Positions 24,552 through 35,671 of a stretch of 35,671 nt of DNA are shown here, piece after piece (position 1 is the stretch's first letter; every line of letters starts with the position of its first letter). The notes beneath the pieces were generated by a model. The model saw only the letters and a list, made by a program, of their open reading frames with translations. It was not told the origin of the DNA and ran no database searches. The translations under genes were made by a program, and so were the position numbers. Origin of the DNA: Methylococcales bacterium (GTDB taxonomy: Bacteria; Pseudomonadota; Gammaproteobacteria; Methylococcales; Methylomonadaceae); contig JAPLRP010000008.1 of the NCBI GenBank assembly GCA_026399095.1, positions 1-35,671 on the forward strand, given 5' to 3'.

Positions 24552-25697
24552 ATGACCAACCAAACTAATAGCACCATACTGATAGTAGATGATACTGCTG
24601 AAAATCTGAGCATACTGGTTGACATTCTTCAACCAAAATATCGGGTGCTTGCTACCACCTCTGGAGCTGCCTGTTTAAAAATTGCAGGTAGTAACCCAAA
24701 ACCTGATCTAATTCTGCTTGATGTAATAATGCCCGGCATGGATGGTTACGAAGTACTTTTTAAGTTGCATCAAAATCCGCTAACAAGAGATATTCCGGTT
24801 ATTTTTCTCACCGCATTAACCACGGCAGCCAATGAAGAAAGCGGACTAAAACTAGGCGCGGCTGATTACATCACCAAACCTATCACGCCCTCATTAGTGC
24901 TTGCCAGAGTTCGTACTCAAATTGAAGCAAAGCACGCTCGTGACTGGATGAAGAATCAAAATACCATCCTTGAGGCAGAAGTAAAAAAACGAATGCTCGA
25001 AAACAACCTTATCCAACGGGTCAGCATTAGAGCCTTGGCGCATTTGGCAGAAATGCGTGACATGGAAACAGGCAACCACATTTTACGTACTCAAGGCTAT
25101 ATGCATCGACTAGCCACCCGTTTAAACCAACACCCGCGTTTTGCTACCATTCTTAATGATCGCTATATTGACCTGTTAACTGAGTCAGCACCCCTGCATG
25201 ATATTGGCAAGGTTGGCATCCCTGATCACATTCTCCTAAAGCCCGGTAAACATAGTCAAGAAGAATGGGCCATTATGAAAACACATGCAAAACTGGGCAG
25301 CGACGCTATTGAACAAGCTGAAAGAGATATTGATATGCACCCAGCATTTTTTTCTGCAGCCAAGGAAATCGCACGCTGGCACCACGAAAAATGGGATGGT
25401 AGCGGCTATCCGGACGGCTTGGCAAAAGATGCCATACCTGTTTCCGCCCGCTTAATGGCAGTCGCTGATGTATTTGATGCTCTTATCTCAAAACGCGCCT
25501 ACAAACCGGCAATACCTTTCGACCAAGCCCGCGACATGCTAGCGGCGGAACGAGGTAAACACTTTGATCCAGATATGATTGATGCGTTCCTTGACGGCTT
25601 TGACGATTTCGTGGCTATCGCGAAACACTACCAAGACACGGAACAAGTTGCCAGAGAAGACACAAATAACATAGTTAATTTAAACAGGATACTGTAA
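24552..25697 (+). CDS. response regulator with HD-GYP phosphodiesterase domain
   Basis: A two-domain signalling protein predicted to hydrolyse cyclic di-GMP under control of phosphorylation. The receiver domain (about 7-125) has the acidic pair Asp13/Asp14, phospho-acceptor Asp57 (LLLDVIMPG region), Thr87 and Lys109, all canonical. A short coiled linker (about 128-155) leads to the HD-GYP domain (about 155-350) with catalytic His216-Asp217 (HDIGKVGIPD), the HHEKWDGSGYP motif ending in GYP (285-287), and AVADVFDAL. The active site looks intact. The cognate kinase is not in the window; an HPt protein follows 124 bases later and could relay phosphate. Lowered c-di-GMP would be expected to affect biofilm or EPS traits. 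Confidence 0.92.
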   Translation: MTNQTNSTILIVDDTAENLSILVDILQPKYRVLATTSGAACLKIAGSNPKPDLILLDVIMPGMDGYEVLFKLHQNPLTRDIPVIFLTALTTAANEESGLKLGAADYITKPITPSLVLARVRTQIEAKHARDWMKNQNTILEAEVKKRMLENNLIQRVSIRALAHLAEMRDMETGNHILRTQGYMHRLATRLNQHPRFATILNDRYIDLLTESAPLHDIGKVGIPDHILLKPGKHSQEEWAIMKTHAKLGSDAIEQAERDIDMHPAFFSAAKEIARWHHEKWDGSGYPDGLAKDAIPVSARLMAVADVFDALISKRAYKPAIPFDQARDMLAAERGKHFDPDMIDAFLDGFDDFVAIAKHYQDTEQVAREDTNNIVNLNRIL

Positions 25698-25821
25698 TTG
25701 CTGATCACAAAAACACACCTATCATTACAGAAAAACCTCCTAAAAAAACGGATGCACCCTATACCGTTACAGCCATTACGCCAACACAAGAGCCGAACTT
25801 ACTTTTTACTACCCTGCTATA

Positions 25822-26505
25822 ATGGCTACCCTTAAAGCCGATAAAAATAGCCGCTCGACAACTGAAATAACCACGATGATTAAAGAAAAAATCGCCTGCA
25901 CAGATGCTAAAGAGCGGATGGCAAAAATACCAGGGTTAAATATGGCCTATTGTCAATCATTATTAGGCGGCAGTGCCGATAAATACCTTGAGCTAATGAA
26001 CATTTTTCTTGAAGCGCACGTCAATGATATGACTGAACTAAGGTCAAGCCTGACAGAAAAGGATTATGCCTTATCCAAACATTTGATACATACACTTAAA
26101 GGCACCTCAAGCACCTTGGGTTTGGATAAACTAGCCGAAATGGCTAAAGATTTAGAAAATCTATTAGATGACCATCACTACACAACAACATCAGGCGATG
26201 TGATTGACAGCGCCATAAAGAGTATTACCCTTGAGCTAGCTGCTCTTGCAGCTATGTTGCTAGACATGCCTGAAGTTACTTTACAAACTGATAGTCACCT
26301 AAGCCATGGTAAACTTCGTTCAGTGCTAAAAAAACTGGATGAATTATTGGCACAAAATGATGCGGCCGCCATTTTATACTATGAAACCCATGCCGCCGCA
26401 CTTAAACCCGCACTAGGCGCATCTTTTGAATCCTTCTCGCGACTCCTCAAAAAATTTGAATTTGAAAAAGCCGGAAATTTACTGCAAAGAGTTATAAAAA
26501 CTTAA
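25822..26505 (+). CDS. HPt-domain protein, resembling the tail of a hybrid histidine kinase
   Basis: A 227-residue protein with a histidine phosphotransfer domain (about 36-120). The phospho-accepting residue is His90 in HTLKGTSSTLG. After it (about 150-225) comes a helical segment of the kind found at the extreme C-terminus of hybrid sensor kinases (LDELLAQNDAAAILYYETHA and following). The kinase and receiver parts are absent. The start at 25822 lacks a good ribosome site; its ATG overlaps a TAA closing a 48-codon open stretch from 25679 that reads through the gap. An internal ATG at about 25918 with AAAGAG upstream is an alternative. It may relay phosphate to the upstream receiver-HD-GYP protein, or may be a decayed kinase fragment. 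Confidence 0.75.
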   Translation: MATLKADKNSRSTTEITTMIKEKIACTDAKERMAKIPGLNMAYCQSLLGGSADKYLELMNIFLEAHVNDMTELRSSLTEKDYALSKHLIHTLKGTSSTLGLDKLAEMAKDLENLLDDHHYTTTSGDVIDSAIKSITLELAALAAMLLDMPEVTLQTDSHLSHGKLRSVLKKLDELLAQNDAAAILYYETHAAALKPALGASFESFSRLLKKFEFEKAGNLLQRVIKT

Positions 26506-29389: not shown

Positions 29390-30124
29390 TTATTTTTCAA
29401 TAACGATAGGAGAAATAAACGAATATCCAATTGCATGGACAGTTTTTATCGGCAATTCCATTCCCAAATGGGTTAAACATTTATTTCTTAATCGTCCTAC
29501 TAATAAATTCATTCTACGGCTGCCATTTTGGTTAAATTTACCCAAAAGTGTTTCAGCTAAGAAATGCTTATTAACTATCTCTCCCTGTTTTAAGCATAAT
29601 AGATAGATTAATTGATACTCACGAGCCGTTAATTCAATTGAATATCCACTTGGGGAAATAAGCAACCAGCCAAAGGACTTCAATTTCCATGCCGATTTTT
29701 TTCTTCTTTTTGAAACCGCTTCATCGATAATTTGATCATTATCATCATTTTTATCTTTATCTTTATCTTTATTTCTAAGCAACGCCTTAATATTGGCTAG
29801 TAACGTTTCATTGTCAACATCATCCGATAAAATCCTGTTCGATCCCACATTAAGAAAAGAACACTCCCTTTCCACATTCGTCTCAGGACCCATCAAAATG
29901 ATGATAAGTAAATTAGGATTGATAGCCAAATATCGCTCAATATTTTCCTCATTTTCAGATGAAAATTCCAAATCAATGATTAAAACGCTTACTTGAGTGC
30001 CAAGAATCTTCTTAAACAAGGTAATACCTTCCGAAAAGCCCTGCAATGCAACACCTAATTTAGTGATGCCATTAACTCTTGCGCGCAACCTTTCTTTATT
30101 GTTACTTATAAAAAAAACTGACAT
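29390..30124 (-). CDS. atypical OmpR-family response regulator
   Basis: A 244-residue DNA-binding regulator. The N-terminal domain (about 1-110) has a receiver-like pattern with Asp51 (LIIDLEF), but the acidic pair near residues 7-9 is Ser-Asn-Asn and the usual Lys in the last strand is missing (NRILSDDVD). It is therefore a degenerate receiver that may not be regulated by ordinary phosphorylation. A charged linker (KDKDKDKNDDND and KRRKKS) leads to a winged-helix domain (about 150-242: LTAREYQLIYLLCLKQGEIV and GYSF). AGGGA lies five bases before the ATG. It is divergent from the EPS operon across 283 bases containing direct and inverted repeats, which makes it the prime candidate to control that operon. 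Confidence 0.82.
   Translation of the reverse strand: MSVFFISNNKERLRARVNGITKLGVALQGFSEGITLFKKILGTQVSVLIIDLEFSSENEENIERYLAINPNLLIIILMGPETNVERECSFLNVGSNRILSDDVDNETLLANIKALLRNKDKDKDKNDDNDQIIDEAVSKRRKKSAWKLKSFGWLLISPSGYSIELTAREYQLIYLLCLKQGEIVNKHFLAETLLGKFNQNGSRRMNLLVGRLRNKCLTHLGMELPIKTVHAIGYSFISPIVIEK
29750..29773 (-). repeat. hexanucleotide repeat in the regulator linker
   Basis: TTTATC three times plus a near copy TTTATT on the plus strand, encoding the Lys-Asp run of the linker. Gain or loss of a unit keeps the frame and changes linker length by two residues. Confidence 0.6.
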
Positions 30125-30143: not shown

Positions 30144-30178
30144 TTTTAGTTTTGATAATGTAATTAGCAAAACTAAAA
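30144..30178. promoter_or_regulatory. 11-bp perfect inverted repeat upstream of the atypical regulator
   Basis: TTTTAGTTTTG (30144-30154) and CAAAACTAAAA (30168-30178) are exact inverted copies with a 13-base spacer, starting 20 bases before the regulator start codon. Position fits an operator for autoregulation; the arm centres are 24 bases apart, a little over two helical turns. Confidence 0.6.
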
Positions 30179-30193
30179 TAAGCAACTAAAAAC

Positions 30194-30254
30194 GCTTATT
30201 GGTGGCTTTTGGTCGCTTTTTGAGGCAATTTGATGCAATTTGTAGCATTTTGTT
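30194..30254 (+). promoter_or_regulatory. phased tandem 10-bp repeats upstream of the EPS operon
   Basis: Five contiguous 10-base units start at 30205, 30215, 30225, 30235 and 30245: GCTTTTGGTC, GCTTTTTGAG, GCAATTTGAT, GCAATTTGTA, GCATTTTGTT (consensus GCWWTTTGNN). A sixth, GCTTATTGGTG, precedes them at 30194 with an 11-base step. The exact helical period places every unit on the same face of the DNA. The array ends one base before the -35 of the promoter at 30256-30284. This is the layout expected of an activator-binding array for an OmpR-family protein. Confidence 0.75.
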
Positions 30255-30255
30255 G

Positions 30256-30284
30256 CTAGAAAAAATTACCACTTTCTATATAAT
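30256..30284 (+). promoter_or_regulatory. activator-dependent type promoter of the EPS operon
   Basis: A perfect -10 TATAAT (30279-30284) is paired with a poor -35 CTAGAA at 17-base spacing. The weak -35 directly abuts the repeat array, so transcription probably needs the bound activator. It leaves a leader of about 115 bases before the first gene. Confidence 0.6.
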
Positions 30285-30350
30285 AAAACTGCAGCAATGT
30301 CGATAGACAGCTCAATAGCCTTTTTTAAAGCTCGAAATATTAAACAACTT

Positions 30351-30407: not shown

Positions 30408-30833
30408 ATGAAAATTAATAAGACATTGTCAAAATTAGTTTTATTGCTACTGACACTGGTTGTTGTCATGCCAATAACAGCGTCAGCAATATCCGCAAAA
30501 GACAAAAAGGAATTAATTCGTATACAAAAAGATATCGTTGAAATTAATAAAAAACAAGCCATTGTCAATAAAAAAGCCGCTACAGAGCAGGCTAAAATTA
30601 CAAATGACATTGGCATACTAAGAAAACGCTTAGATGCGCCCAAGAAACCATCCAAAAAAGAAATCGCTAAAATAAATATCGCTATCAAGGCATTGGATAA
30701 AAAATCATCAATTTTAATAGAAAAAACCAAACAAGACGTTGCCAAATTAGATCGCGAGAAAAATAAAGATCTTAAAAAAGAAAAAGAAATTGAAGACAAA
30801 TACCCCAAGCCAAAACCCGTCAGCCCAAATTAA
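30408..30833 (+). CDS. secreted Lys-rich coiled-coil protein, unknown function
   Basis: A 141-residue protein I do not recognise. The start at 30408 is chosen over the open frame from 30297 because it begins a clear signal peptide (MKINKTLSKLVLLLLTLVVV, cleavage after TASA near residue 27) and has AAGAG eight bases upstream. The mature part (about 114 residues) is extremely rich in Lys with Ile/Leu at heptad-like spacing (for example ELIRIQKDIVEINKKQ), broken once by APKKPSKKE, so two coiled-coil helices joined by a proline turn are likely. It ends KPKPVSPN. It is the first gene after the phased-repeat promoter, 36 bases before the next gene. It might coat or bridge anionic polysaccharide, but that is only inference. 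Confidence 0.7.
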   Translation: MKINKTLSKLVLLLLTLVVVMPITASAISAKDKKELIRIQKDIVEINKKQAIVNKKAATEQAKITNDIGILRKRLDAPKKPSKKEIAKINIAIKALDKKSSILIEKTKQDVAKLDREKNKDLKKEKEIEDKYPKPKPVSPN

Positions 30834-30869: not shown

Positions 30870-31463
30870 ATGCTTATTAAGCTTTTTTTATTGCTTTTTT
30901 ATTTATTAAACCCCCTAAGAGTTAATGCTTTTGAGGCACTTGATAGTGCCCCAAAAAACGATCAGGCTGTCGCTAACACAGCGGCTGATATTAAAACGGC
31001 CCTAGCAGCCAATCCCGACCAGGCTGCTAGTTTAACGGCCGCGATAGTATCAGCCGCCATAGTGGCCAACCCCGATCAAGTAGCTGCCATTACTGCAGCG
31101 GCTATTGGCGTTAACCCTAGTATGGCGATTATTATTACTACTGCTGCTGTTGCAGTAGCGCCCAGTCAAGCGGCAGCCATTGCAGCCGCTGCTAACCTGG
31201 CAGTACCGGGACAGGCATCGGCGATTAAAACAGCCGCAGTAACTGCTTTACTTACTTCGCAAGGGAAAAACATCCTCTCCACTACGACCTCGGAATCAAC
31301 AGTCAATTCGATCGGCATGTCAGTTGCTGTTGTTGTAAACACCCTAGATGCCTGCGGCAACAATCAAGCCTGCATCAAAAATGTGTATAAATTAGTCGCA
31401 GAATCAAGTAGCAACACAACGCTAATAGACGAAGACATTAAAAAAGAAGTTAGTCCAAACTAA
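30870..31463 (+). CDS. secreted Ala-rich repeat protein, unknown function
   Basis: A 197-residue protein I do not recognise. The signal peptide MLIKLFLLLFYLLNPLRVNA has likely cleavage after residue 20. Residues 27-127 contain about six degenerate repeats of 15-19 residues, Asn-Pro-x-Gln followed by an Ala/Ile/Val-rich helix (ANPDQAASLTAAIV, ANPDQVAAITAAAIGV, NPSMAIIITTAAVAV, APSQAAAIAAAANLAV), which suggests an alpha-helical solenoid or bundle. The C-terminal part has a Cys pair (162 and 168, ACGNNQAC) and ends KKEVSPN, the same last four residues as the preceding protein. It lies 36 bases after that gene and 28 before the barrel gene, in one operon. No strong ribosome site is visible. Confidence 0.7.
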   Translation: MLIKLFLLLFYLLNPLRVNAFEALDSAPKNDQAVANTAADIKTALAANPDQAASLTAAIVSAAIVANPDQVAAITAAAIGVNPSMAIIITTAAVAVAPSQAAAIAAAANLAVPGQASAIKTAAVTALLTSQGKNILSTTTSESTVNSIGMSVAVVVNTLDACGNNQACIKNVYKLVAESSSNTTLIDEDIKKEVSPN

Positions 31464-31491: not shown

Positions 31492-32814
31492 ATGCCTTTT
31501 TGCACAAAAAATCAAATAAAAGCTTTAATGATTGGCTTAATTAGCTGCGGCAATGCTGTTGCTTATGATAGTAACGATGACAGTGGGATAACAAAAGATC
31601 GCCGAAAAGCAGATTATATTCCCCAAGGCGTACACGCAGGTGCATTTACAGTATTACCAAAATTAGATTTTACCAACGAATACAATTCCAATATTTATTA
31701 TCGTGATAAATCACTAGGCACCAACGATAGTTATATTGCCCATTTCAAACCCGGCTTAACCGCCAACTCGAACTGGAGCCAACATTCACTTAATTTTATG
31801 TTGGATACTGACTTGGCGCAGTATGCCACGCAACCAGACAACAATGATTTTAATCACGTCATGACCGAGTTAGATGGCCGTCTTGATGTGTTAAGAGACA
31901 GTCATTTTGACGCCGGATTTGGTTACAACTACCTCACCGAAAACAGAGGCTCTCCTGACCAAATCAGCGGTATAGCCCCCACTATTTATGACACCAAAGT
32001 CATCGATGGGTTTTTTACCCAAACCTTTAATCGTGTCAATGCCCGATTAGGTTTAAACGCCATTAGTTACAATTACCAAGATGTGCAAACCTCTTTAGAT
32101 ACCACCTTACAAATGACCACTCGTAATCATTGGCTTTATGCTCCCGAACTTAGAGTGGGGTATTTAATACAACCAGAATATGAAGCCTTTGTAAGATTTC
32201 AATATCTTGAAGCCAGTTATGACACCTTGGTTTACACCAATGGTGTAGCGCCCAGCGTGGGTGCAAATGGCCAAATCAACAATCCCGCCTATGATCGTAA
32301 TTCATCGGGCTACAACGCTTTAATGGGTATCGCTTTAGACTTAACCGGCTTAATCACAGCCGATGCCTCTTTAGGTTATTTACAGCGCACATACGTAGAC
32401 CCGGCTTTGCCAGAAATTGCCGGCGTTAACGGCTTTGTCAATTTAAAATGGCGCCCCACCAAACTGACCACCGTTACCAGCGCGATTAGTCGTACCATTA
32501 ATGAAACCACTCAAGCCGGTGTATCTGGCGTTTTTACAACGGGTTTAGGCTTAACAGTTGAACATGAATTAAAACGAAATATTATTTTGTATACCAGTGC
32601 TCAATACAGCGATGGCATCTACGAAGGCTTTACCTTTCCGAGCACCCAAAATCGTAACGATAGCTACTATGGCGGCAATATTGGCTCCAAATATCTATTA
32701 AACAGAAACGTCTCAACCGATCTTTCTTACACCTACCAAGCACGTAGCAGTAATTACCAAAACGCCGACTTTGAAGTTAATCAAATCATGATTAACTTTA
32801 GAGGTCAATATTAA
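31492..32814 (+). CDS. outer-membrane beta-barrel protein of the EPS operon (EpsL/BBP2-like)
   Basis: A 440-residue outer-membrane protein. The N-terminus has a signal sequence (cleavage probably after NAVA, residue 24) and then VLPKLDFTNEYNSNIYYRD, the typical opening of BBP2-type barrels in EPS clusters. Alternating aromatic strands run to the end (for example LSYTYQARSSNYQNADFE), and the last residue is aromatic (RGQY), as required for BAM insertion. Proteins of this kind in methylotroph EPS operons (EpsL) are thought to help polymer pass the outer membrane. The stop codon lies within a 12-bp perfect inverted repeat (32803-32832). Upstream and downstream genes are co-directional. Confidence 0.8.
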   Translation: MPFCTKNQIKALMIGLISCGNAVAYDSNDDSGITKDRRKADYIPQGVHAGAFTVLPKLDFTNEYNSNIYYRDKSLGTNDSYIAHFKPGLTANSNWSQHSLNFMLDTDLAQYATQPDNNDFNHVMTELDGRLDVLRDSHFDAGFGYNYLTENRGSPDQISGIAPTIYDTKVIDGFFTQTFNRVNARLGLNAISYNYQDVQTSLDTTLQMTTRNHWLYAPELRVGYLIQPEYEAFVRFQYLEASYDTLVYTNGVAPSVGANGQINNPAYDRNSSGYNALMGIALDLTGLITADASLGYLQRTYVDPALPEIAGVNGFVNLKWRPTKLTTVTSAISRTINETTQAGVSGVFTTGLGLTVEHELKRNIILYTSAQYSDGIYEGFTFPSTQNRNDSYYGGNIGSKYLLNRNVSTDLSYTYQARSSNYQNADFEVNQIMINFRGQY

Positions 32815-32864: not shown

Positions 32865-33440
32865 ATGACTAAATCATGTTTAACCGTTATTTCACCACTC
32901 GTGTTGAGTGTGTTTTTTTGTTCGCCACTGCTTGCAGACGACGCAATACCCGATAATTTTCCCGTCAATACTATTGAAGATGAAGAATATAAACTGGGTT
33001 CCGGGGATTTAATAAAAATCACCGTCTTTAATCAAAAAGAATTATCCGGCGAATACATGATTAACGGAGCCGGCCTGATTGCCCTTCCCTTAATTGGCGA
33101 TGTAAAAACAAAAGACTTGACCGTAAAACAAGTCGAAGAAGGCATCGCCAATAAATTAAAACCTGATTACTTACTTAACCCAAAAGTTAACGTACAAGTT
33201 TTAAACTACCGGCCCTTTTATATCCTGGGCGAAGTGAAAGAGCCTCAATCTTATCCTTATGTCGACGGCATGACCTATCTTAACGCCGTAGCCATCGCAG
33301 GCGGCTATAGTTATCGCGCCAAAGAAGATTATGTGATGGTCATCAGAATGAAAGACCCCCAAAAACGCGAGCTAAAACTCAATATGGATGAAAAAGTAAT
33401 GCCGGGTGATGTAATCCACGTTGAAGAACGGTTTTTTTAG
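32865..33440 (+). CDS. Wza-like polysaccharide export protein
   Basis: A 191-residue periplasmic or outer-membrane polysaccharide exporter. A signal sequence (about 1-25, ending LLADD) is followed by the poly-export domain (about 42-120: YKLGSGDLIKITVFNQKELSG, then GLIALPLIGDVK) and one SLBB domain (about 118-190: FYILGEVKEPQSYPYVDGMTYLNAVAIAGGY). It ends PGDVIHVEERFF. This is the short form (Wza of E. coli has about 380 residues), as seen in EPS loci with a separate barrel protein, so the upstream barrel may form the outer-membrane pore. Cys19 lacks a proper lipobox. It lies 64 bases before the Wzc-like gene. Confidence 0.88.
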   Translation: MTKSCLTVISPLVLSVFFCSPLLADDAIPDNFPVNTIEDEEYKLGSGDLIKITVFNQKELSGEYMINGAGLIALPLIGDVKTKDLTVKQVEEGIANKLKPDYLLNPKVNVQVLNYRPFYILGEVKEPQSYPYVDGMTYLNAVAIAGGYSYRAKEDYVMVIRMKDPQKRELKLNMDEKVMPGDVIHVEERFF

Positions 33441-33504: not shown

Positions 33505-35671
33505 GTGTACGAATCAAGAGACAAAAATCAGCAAACTGAAGACTCGCTGCAAATCGACAATACCGAGATTTCTTTAAGCAATATTATCAACACCCTCTGG
33601 TTAAGAAAACGCATCCTCATCAGTGTTACTTTTTTTATTAGTTTATTAGCGGTTTTGGCTATTTTTCAGTTAATCCCGCGTTACACAGCCGCCACGCAAC
33701 TTTTGATTGGCATCAACTCGGCTAAAGTGGTTGATATTCAAGAAGTCATGAGCGGCAGTTTAAACGGTGACTCTGCCGTTATCGGTGAAATGGAAGTCAT
33801 TAAATCGCGTGAATTAGCTCGTAAAATCATCAACCTTTTACATTTAGATCAATACGAAGAATATAACCCGGCCCTTAAAAAACCCGGCTTTTTTGCCGAG
33901 TTCGGTCCAAAAACTTGGCTACCGGAAAGTTGGATAGAAGCGATGGGCATGACTGAAATTGACGCCCGTACCGAAGAAGAAAAAGAAGAAGCCCGACTCA
34001 CCAATTTAACCAATACCTTTCTTAGTAAGTTAACGGTTTCACAAGTTAAACGCTCACAAGTCATCAATGTCGCTTTTGAATCAGAAGACCCTGCCTTAGC
34101 CGCCAAAATTGCTAATGAAATCGCTGATAACTACATCGTAGGTCAGTTACAAGCCAAATTTGATGCCACCAAAAAAGCCACCGATTGGCTCAATGATCAA
34201 CTCGGCGATTTAAAACTAAAACTCGAATCCTCAGAACGCGCCGTAGAAGAATACAAAAAAACCCATGCCTTACTCGAAGTGAGTGATGGCACGGGTCTGA
34301 GCCAACAACAACTATCAGAAGTTAACAGCCAATTAATCATCGCCCGCGCACAACGTGCCGAAGCCGAAGCCAAATACCAACAAGTAGAAGCAATCGCCAG
34401 AAGTGGTCAAGATATCGATAGCGTTTCGGAAGTTTTAAATTCTGCCCTGATTTCTTCATTGCGTGGACAAGAAGCCGAAGTGCAACGTAATTACTCGGAA
34501 ATGCTGGTTGAATATGGCGCTCGCCATCCCAACATGATTCAAATGCAAGCCGAACTAGCTGACATTAAAGGCAAAATAGGCTTGGAAGTAAAAAAAATAG
34601 CCGCCGGCTTACGACATAGCCTTGATGTTGACCGCGCTCGCGAAAGTTCTTTAGCGGGCAGTTTAAAACAAATGGAATCCAAAACAACCGGCAACAGTGA
34701 AGCAGAAGTAGAGCTACATGCCTTAGAGCGTGAAGCAACCGCCAACAAAGCCCTGTTTGAAACCTTTTTGGGGCGCTTTAAAGAAACCGCGTCAACTCAA
34801 GGTATTGCTCAAGCCGATGCACGAGTCATCTCTTTTGCAGAGATTCCTTTAATTGCTTCTTTCCCCAAGAAAAACCTGATGCTGACTGTCAGCATCATGG
34901 GCGCACTGTTTTTTGCGGTATTTTTGGTGTTTGTACTTGAAATGCTTAGCCCGGGCGTGCGATCACCCGAACAAATTCAGGCTCTTTTTAACATGACCAC
35001 GCTAGGTATCGTGCCTAAACTTATGGACATAAAAATACCGCCTCATGAATACCTGCTGGAAAAGCCTCAGTCGGCATTAGCAGAAGCGATGAACACCCTG
35101 CGGATATCGTTATCGTTACTTAACCCGGATTCTGAGACCAAAACCATCGTAGTCACCTCCTCAGTCCCTGGCGAAGGCAAATCAACGTTGTGCAGCACAT
35201 TGGCCAGACACTCGGCCTCTGCCGGAAAAAAAGTAGTCCTAGTGGATTGTGATTTACGCCGCCCGACTATTTCAAAAATATTTAATCTTGAAAAAGATAC
35301 TCTGGGCCTGACCGATTACTTAATGAACCACGACTTGGTAGTGGATAATCTGTTGGTGACAGACCCCAGAACCGGTATGAAAATTTTAACCCGGGGCCAT
35401 TCAGCCTATATTAACCCCAGCGATTTATTTGCCTCGCAGCGCATGAAAAGGTTAATTGAACATTTACGGCAACACTTTGATCTGGTTATTTTGGACTCAG
35501 CCCCCATCATGGCCGTACCGGATACCCGCATATTAGCCGGCTTGGCCGACAAAACCCTGTTTGTCTTAAACTGGGATGCAACACCCAAAAAAGTAGTCGC
35601 CAGTGCCTTACATATTTTAAATAAAGACGGCCATAACAACCTGGCCGGCATTGTCTTACAAAAAGTAAATA
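33505..35671 (+). CDS. Wzc-like chain-length regulator and BY-kinase, partial at window end
   Basis: A fused polysaccharide co-polymerase and tyrosine autokinase, open from GTG 33505 to the window edge (722 codons seen, 3' end missing). Order: Wzz domain with first helix (about 37-58), a long periplasmic coiled-coil stretch with the GNVR-type ARHPNMIQMQAEL (about 340-352), second helix (about 457-480), then the cytoplasmic kinase. Kinase motifs are Walker A SSVPGEGKST (552-561), Walker A-prime VVLVDCDLRRP (Asp581, Asp583) and Walker B LVILDSAP (660-667). The GTG is preceded by GAG six bases away. The C-terminal Tyr cluster would lie beyond the window. With Wza-like and barrel proteins upstream, it should control polymer length and export. 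Confidence 0.9.
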   Translation, partial: MYESRDKNQQTEDSLQIDNTEISLSNIINTLWLRKRILISVTFFISLLAVLAIFQLIPRYTAATQLLIGINSAKVVDIQEVMSGSLNGDSAVIGEMEVIKSRELARKIINLLHLDQYEEYNPALKKPGFFAEFGPKTWLPESWIEAMGMTEIDARTEEEKEEARLTNLTNTFLSKLTVSQVKRSQVINVAFESEDPALAAKIANEIADNYIVGQLQAKFDATKKATDWLNDQLGDLKLKLESSERAVEEYKKTHALLEVSDGTGLSQQQLSEVNSQLIIARAQRAEAEAKYQQVEAIARSGQDIDSVSEVLNSALISSLRGQEAEVQRNYSEMLVEYGARHPNMIQMQAELADIKGKIGLEVKKIAAGLRHSLDVDRARESSLAGSLKQMESKTTGNSEAEVELHALEREATANKALFETFLGRFKETASTQGIAQADARVISFAEIPLIASFPKKNLMLTVSIMGALFFAVFLVFVLEMLSPGVRSPEQIQALFNMTTLGIVPKLMDIKIPPHEYLLEKPQSALAEAMNTLRISLSLLNPDSETKTIVVTSSVPGEGKSTLCSTLARHSASAGKKVVLVDCDLRRPTISKIFNLEKDTLGLTDYLMNHDLVVDNLLVTDPRTGMKILTRGHSAYINPSDLFASQRMKRLIEHLRQHFDLVILDSAPIMAVPDTRILAGLADKTLFVLNWDATPKKVVASALHILNKDGHNNLAGIVLQKVN

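Follow-up and report, generated by a model that had tools for sequence, protein, structure and literature searches.

Tandem 10-bp direct repeats as a probable operator between an OmpR-type regulator gene and an exopolysaccharide operon

A row of six direct repeats lies between a divergently transcribed OmpR-type regulator gene and an exopolysaccharide (EPS) operon in the window, the whole 35,671-nucleotide stretch of DNA analysed here. The row is best read from its sequence as a tandem direct-repeat operator of the OmpR/PhoB type, a principle that is already well established. We assign a probability of about 0.68 to the reading that it is the operator of the EPS operon, bound head to tail by the divergently encoded regulator, and that this binding activates the operon. 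Array and neighbouring regulator gene are kept together in two relatives, so the array is most likely the regulator's site. The genus was taken as Methylobacter and covered by 35 genomes, the source genome (G000) included; the two relatives are G002, which matches M. psychrophilus Z-0021, and G011. Exopolysaccharide synthesis in a methanotroph thereby gains a defined candidate operator and a probable regulator.

The repeat array and the promoter it adjoins

The array and the predicted promoter comprise the following features.

30194..30254, forward strand: array of six units of consensus GCWWTTTGNN at steps of 11, 10, 10, 10 and 10 bp; proposed tandem operator, kept in two relatives
Unit 1, start 30194: GCTTATTGGT
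Unit 2, start 30205 (11-bp step): GCTTTTGGTC
Unit 3, start 30215 (10-bp step): GCTTTTTGAG
Unit 4, start 30225 (10-bp step): GCAATTTGAT
Unit 5, start 30235 (10-bp step): GCAATTTGTA
Unit 6, start 30245 (10-bp step), end 30254: GCATTTTGTT
30256..30261, forward strand: poor -35 CTAGAA, 2/6 match to TTGACA with a spacer of 17, one base after the last unit
30279..30284, forward strand: perfect -10 TATAAT, also found in both relatives

A preliminary description of this DNA had reported five exact 10-base units and a sixth at an 11-base step, with the row ending one base before CTAGAA and this hexamer 17 bp from TATAAT. Both statements were right in their coordinates. The 10-bp phase is continued once more by a GC at 30255.

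In the 16 units from the window, G002 and G011 taken together, position 1 was G in 13 and C in two, position 2 was C or T and position 6 was T in all 16, and position 8 was G in 14 and C in none; positions 9 and 10 were variable. Constancy of G1, C/T2, T6 and G8 on one strand is expected if a protein reads the units unidirectionally. Within the window the units differ mainly at positions 3, 4, 9 and 10 and are constant at 1, 2, 6 and 8. This pattern argues against a neutral minisatellite, whose units would have arisen by slippage and serve no function, as does the persistence of the motif across two lineages with regulators of about 30% identity. Simple repeats do occur nearby, for example a run of hexanucleotides within the regulator gene and, in the G002 leader, a run of A-rich hexamers, and could be taken to favour slippage, but we consider this explanation very improbable.

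The array is unlikely to have arisen by chance. Chains of five units were scored against the consensus of the preliminary description, GCWWTTTGNN, with steps of 9-11 bp and a maximum of 40. The window chain scored 39/40 and was equalled by none of 300 dinucleotide shuffles (mean 23.5, maximum 28). A motif-free test of 10-bp self-similarity in the 283-bp intergenic region, maximised over periods 6-14 and permitting no 9-bp slip, was equalled by 1/300 dinucleotide shuffles. These results bear out the earlier claim that such helical phasing is rare by chance. As the consensus was derived from the window array itself, G002 and G011 provide the independent test. Both scored 31/40, equalled by 0/300 shuffles in each case (shuffle maximum 30 in G002 and 28 in G011). 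The motif-free test did not pick out the 10-bp period in either relative. Its best period was 6 in both, reached by 0/300 shuffles in G002, because of the A-rich hexamer run in the leader, and by 32/300 in G011.

The step of 10.0 bp is slightly shorter than the 10.5-bp helical turn, so the earlier statement that all sites occupy one DNA face stands as an approximation and fails as an exact description. The same near-phasing could in principle reflect intrinsic curvature from phased A/T tracts. Six tracts of 4-5 A/T without TpA occur in the 70 bp from 30194, with a resultant of 5.0 (at 10.0 bp/turn) or 5.5 (at 10.5 bp) of 6; the resultant was 4.0-4.1 of 6 in both relatives. The predicted 70-bp bends, calculated with wedge parameters, were however not exceptional. 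They came to 55.8, 48.9 and 40.1 degrees in the window, G002 and G011, placing them at the 86th, 76th and 62nd percentile of the window, and were equalled by 14, 17 and 34% of mononucleotide shuffles, respectively. Bending alone is unlikely given so ordinary a predicted bend despite in-phase tracts. Moreover, bending would not require a strand-specific G at positions 1 and 8, yet the units retain one, and six EPS promoter regions without the regulator are array-free. We therefore regard curvature as an unlikely main explanation.

The array adjoins the weak -35 of a predicted EPS promoter, with a similar arrangement in G002 and G011. The last unit starts 34 bp before TATAAT in the window and 32 bp before it in both relatives. 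An alternative -35, TAGAAA, with a spacer of 16 matches TTGACA at 4/6 positions, and over spacers of 15-19 the best -35 match was 4/6 in the window, 3/6 in G002 and 2/6 in G011. Three promoter-like sites were predicted in the region, against 1.8 expected. The poor -35, together with an array ending there, suggests activation by contact with RNA polymerase.

This layout is compatible with the following mechanism. Several regulator molecules would line up head to tail on roughly one DNA face, each bound to one 10-bp unit. The last bound molecule may then touch RNA polymerase at the promoter, whose -10 is perfect and whose -35 is all but absent. How fully the row is occupied would depend on the amount or state of the regulator and on contacts between neighbours, and this occupancy would turn the operon on. 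Binding of the regulator to the array, its cooperativity and the positive sign of regulation are all presumed here.

The divergent regulator and the EPS genes

The genes flanking the array are listed below.

29390..30124, reverse strand: regulator gene, 244 aa, with a pseudo-receiver domain and an OmpR-type winged helix joined by a low-complexity KDKDKDK linker
30408..30833, forward strand: first operon gene, encoding a 141-aa Lys-rich protein with a signal peptide-like start and the C-terminus VSPN
30870..31463, forward strand: Ala-rich, secreted-looking protein ending in VSPN
31492..32814, forward strand: putative beta-barrel porin 2 (BBP2_2), by family match
32865..33440, forward strand: polysaccharide export protein (Poly_export, SLBB), by family match
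33505..35670, forward strand: polysaccharide co-polymerase/tyrosine kinase-like protein (Wzz, GNVR, AAA_31), by family match; runs off the window

The preliminary description had named the divergent regulator at 29390-30124 as the most likely activator, and an OmpR-type DNA-binding domain was identified in it by Pfam, PDB and fold comparison. The winged helix matched Pfam Trans_reg_C (PF00486, 8.9e-11), and PDB sequence matches were to OmpR/PhoB-family proteins such as 1kgs and SaeR. No Pfam receiver-domain match was found in the N-terminal half. An AlphaFold2 model (pLDDT 88.8, pTM 0.52) predicts an N-terminal receiver fold and a C-terminal winged helix. The modelled receiver-like fold matches receiver domains, for example 3crn at an rmsd of 1.7, and fold matches of the regulator include RitR and the atypical regulator 2hqr, titled phosphorylation-independent.

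The canonical receiver residues are missing from this domain: residues 7-9 are SNN with no acid pair, and the Lys position is occupied by another residue (LSDD). An ordinary phospho-switch is thus doubtful, and we infer control by something other than phosphorylation. D51 is present in the regulators of the window, G002 and G011 and is a Tyr in a fourth orthologue (L004, from G001). The motifs NQ-x-G-x-R and GRLR-x-K are common to all four orthologues.

The KDKDKDK linker between the domains is encoded by a hexanucleotide repeat of 6.3 copies at 29735-29772; the G011 regulator has an EPV repeat as its linker instead. By inspection, the gene next to the regulator is a helicase-like ORF in the window and glmS-like in G002 and G011. 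Two-component-like ORFs lie at 24552-26505, 3-6 kb from the regulator, and appear by inspection to encode an Hpt-like protein and a receiver coupled to an HD-type output domain. An inverted repeat at 30144-30178 (16-nt arms, 94% complementarity, 3-nt gap) covers what inspection suggests to be the regulator-gene promoter. No counterpart was apparent by eye in G002 or G011, and the repeat is possibly a separate autoregulatory site.

The start of the first operon gene was chosen by inspection, 30408 being more likely than an upstream ATG at 30297. In G002 and G011 the first ORF downstream of the array promoter resembles the Ala-rich gene, and the operon continues with apparent nucleotide-sugar and flippase genes, named by inspection. 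The first two genes of the window operon (ends 30833 and 31463) encode small, secreted-looking proteins that differ from each other but both end in VSPN. At other loci (L093-L101, L103) SPN ends 7/10 pre-porin genes, and a Lys-rich protein at L102 also ends in VSPN. This C-terminus could be a sorting or processing tag. A DNA pattern for a C-terminal VSPN gave one match elsewhere and missed the window's own genes. A second porin paralogue in the same genome (L108, G000:C18:348-1682) is 70% identical and, by inspection, lies beside a dnaB-like ORF; no chain score of at least 30 was found in the L108 sequence.

Occurrence of array and regulator among relatives

At E <= 0.001 the regulator had matches in 27/35 genus genomes, many of which matched just the widespread DNA-binding domain. 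At E <= 1e-45, close orthologues were found in 4/311 genomes of the order, namely G000, G001, G002 and G011, all of them within the genus. A genome-contig search with the window regulator protein found no relative; when the G011 protein was the query, M. psychrophilus was the single relative found. The window regulator is 31% identical to that of G002 and 29% to that of G011, within a range of 29-34% depending on the alignment.

Both G002 and G011 have the regulator divergent to an Ala-rich VSPN gene followed by the same EPS genes, and five units, at steps of 10, 10, 9 and 10 bp, lie between the divergent genes. The best shared 17-mer with the window array was 16/17 in G011 and 15/17 in G002. 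Conservation of the 10-bp period in relatives with the same gene pair had been proposed as a check on the array. The motif row was kept in both such relatives (2/2), but their 9-bp step breaks the period, so exact 10-bp phasing is not conserved. A MAFFT alignment of the three intergenic regions did not line up the units one by one. Since G002 and G011 are close relatives, effectively two independent lineages carry the array.

The most similar regulator (43-44% identity) is that of G001 (L004, G001:C20), where neither the EPS porin nor the export protein had a match. Upstream of it we found a weak chain of 28/40, equalled by 0/300 shuffles (maximum 26), with a best 17-mer of 14/17. Decay following the loss of the operon would account for such a chain, but so would chance, as 13 further regions were tested alongside it. 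One could tentatively extend these observations to a phosphorylation-independent pseudo-receiver regulator dedicated to a single Methylobacter EPS operon. How strongly the operon switches would then depend on the number of 10-bp units and on single slips of 9 or 11 bp, and loss of the operon, as in G001, would be followed by decay of the row. We hold this broader scheme to be possible but doubtful.

Array and regulator occur together. The EPS porin query gave 17 loci in 16/35 genus genomes. Three of these operons have an array, each with the regulator adjacent; six are without; and eight (L096, L097, L102, L104-L108) were not judged at the operon promoter. The array was absent upstream of EPS in all six examinable regions (G006, G009, G017, G018, G019 and G027), taken as the sequence upstream of the first recognised gene. 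They scored 23-26, values that 20 to 238 of 300 shuffles reached, and no close regulator orthologue (E <= 1e-45) was found in any of the six genomes. Nor was an array found upstream of four distant regulator relatives (L007, L008, L009, L011), where 145 to 299 of 300 shuffles scored as high. Thus the array goes with the regulator (3/3 vs 0/6), as supported by a small sample from two lineages, and this co-occurrence suggests that the regulator is the cognate one.

It is improbable, but somewhat less so than curvature, that the array is instead the operator or silencer of another winged-helix regulator, the divergent gene being incidental, or that it is a repressor site of the divergent regulator. 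The pairing rests on neighbourhood and on co-occurrence in few genomes, and an array between two divergent genes could act on either. The 3/3 vs 0/6 distribution nevertheless counts against an incidental neighbour, and the poor -35 points to activation. A repressor site also more often covers the -10 or the transcription start.

The array appears to be unique in its own genome. A pattern made of two units and the GC that follows matched there solely at the array (three overlapping places), and neither this pattern nor a loosened four-unit one found another copy. Across the family, the four-unit pattern with at most three mismatches matched 4/237 genomes, the source genome included. The reversed control gave a similar yield (three matches in two genomes), so the three other matches, each with three mismatches, are at chance level. 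Having fixed steps, this pattern misses the G002 and G011 arrays. Two of the three further matches (L119, L120; the third is L121) were looked into and rejected as candidates: that in G118 (L119) overlaps mechanical ORFs, and that in G165 (L120) falls in a gap where no ORF reaches 90 aa, at a locus with no EPS-like ORF. Near 1500-1540 of L120, which belongs to another genus of the family, there is a TTTTG-type row with steps of about 10 bp, scoring 33/40. The two-unit pattern matched 25/35 genus genomes, and its reversed control matched many too, so it was too common to be of use.

A first scan of the loci gave its best chains at L108 (29), L102 (28.5) and L093 (28.5); 30 mononucleotide shuffles reached at most 27. 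On inspection no chain was array-like, and none reached 30 in a stricter scan. That scan covered 1,004,380 bases, counting both strands and overlapping loci, and was the only analysis to include the longer flanks L109-L117 and L135. Scores of at least 30 occurred solely in the three arrays and in three loci chosen for their fit to the loosened pattern.

Comparison with known OmpR-type operators

The array shows the direct repeats at about 10-11 bp that characterise OmpR/PhoB-family operators, with one 9-bp step in G002 and G011. The unit sequence of OmpR sites differs from that of the array. TorR, also of the OmpR family, is an ordinary two-component regulator whose tor boxes are decamers, and the membrane-bound ToxR has an OmpR-type winged helix and a tandem TTTTGAT repeat with a 7-bp step. 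SARP regulators are actinobacterial and, to our knowledge, without a receiver-like domain.

The preliminary description had stated that OmpR-family proteins bind direct repeats about 10-11 bp apart. Published accounts give tandem 10-bp subsites for OmpR (PMC3050693) and repeats mostly at 11 bp for ArcA (PMC3798270). The E. coli OmpR sites F1-F2-F3 (ompF) and C1-C2-C3 (ompC) are described as two tandem 10-bp subsites each, with two OmpR bound (PMC3050693), and six OmpR proteins in tandem have been reported at ompF (Harlocker et al. 1995, via PMC5930380). The array has the same layout of tandem 10-bp units as these promoters. OmpR is described as acting when phosphorylated (PMC3050693); the divergent regulator lacks the canonical receiver residues. 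OmpR also has many targets, with 43 putative sites given for S. Typhi (PMC3586657), whereas this array occurs once in its own genome by the patterns searched.

ArcA, of the OmpR/PhoB family, likewise has sites of multiple direct repeats mostly one helical turn apart, the majority holding three to five repeats (PMC3798270). By contrast with the array, its spacing is mostly 11 bp, and it is described as a global regulator whose sites lie at no conserved position with respect to the promoter (PMC3798270). SARPs such as PimR, which have an OmpR-like DNA-binding domain, are similar to the proposed system in their direct repeats one turn apart; these are heptameric, bound cooperatively and activating, but at a step of 11 bp (PMC5930380). 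In the case of TorR, several repeated tor boxes precede the torCAD operon and are bound by the activator (PMC9239176).

No description of the regulation of such an operon in Methylobacter was found among the titles and abstract openings listed by text searches of open-licence papers. The arrays add a small natural series of tandem OmpR-type operators that differ in unit number and slips. Compared with the known systems, the degenerate receiver is the less usual part, and for this a phosphorylation-independent precedent is already known from the title of 2hqr.
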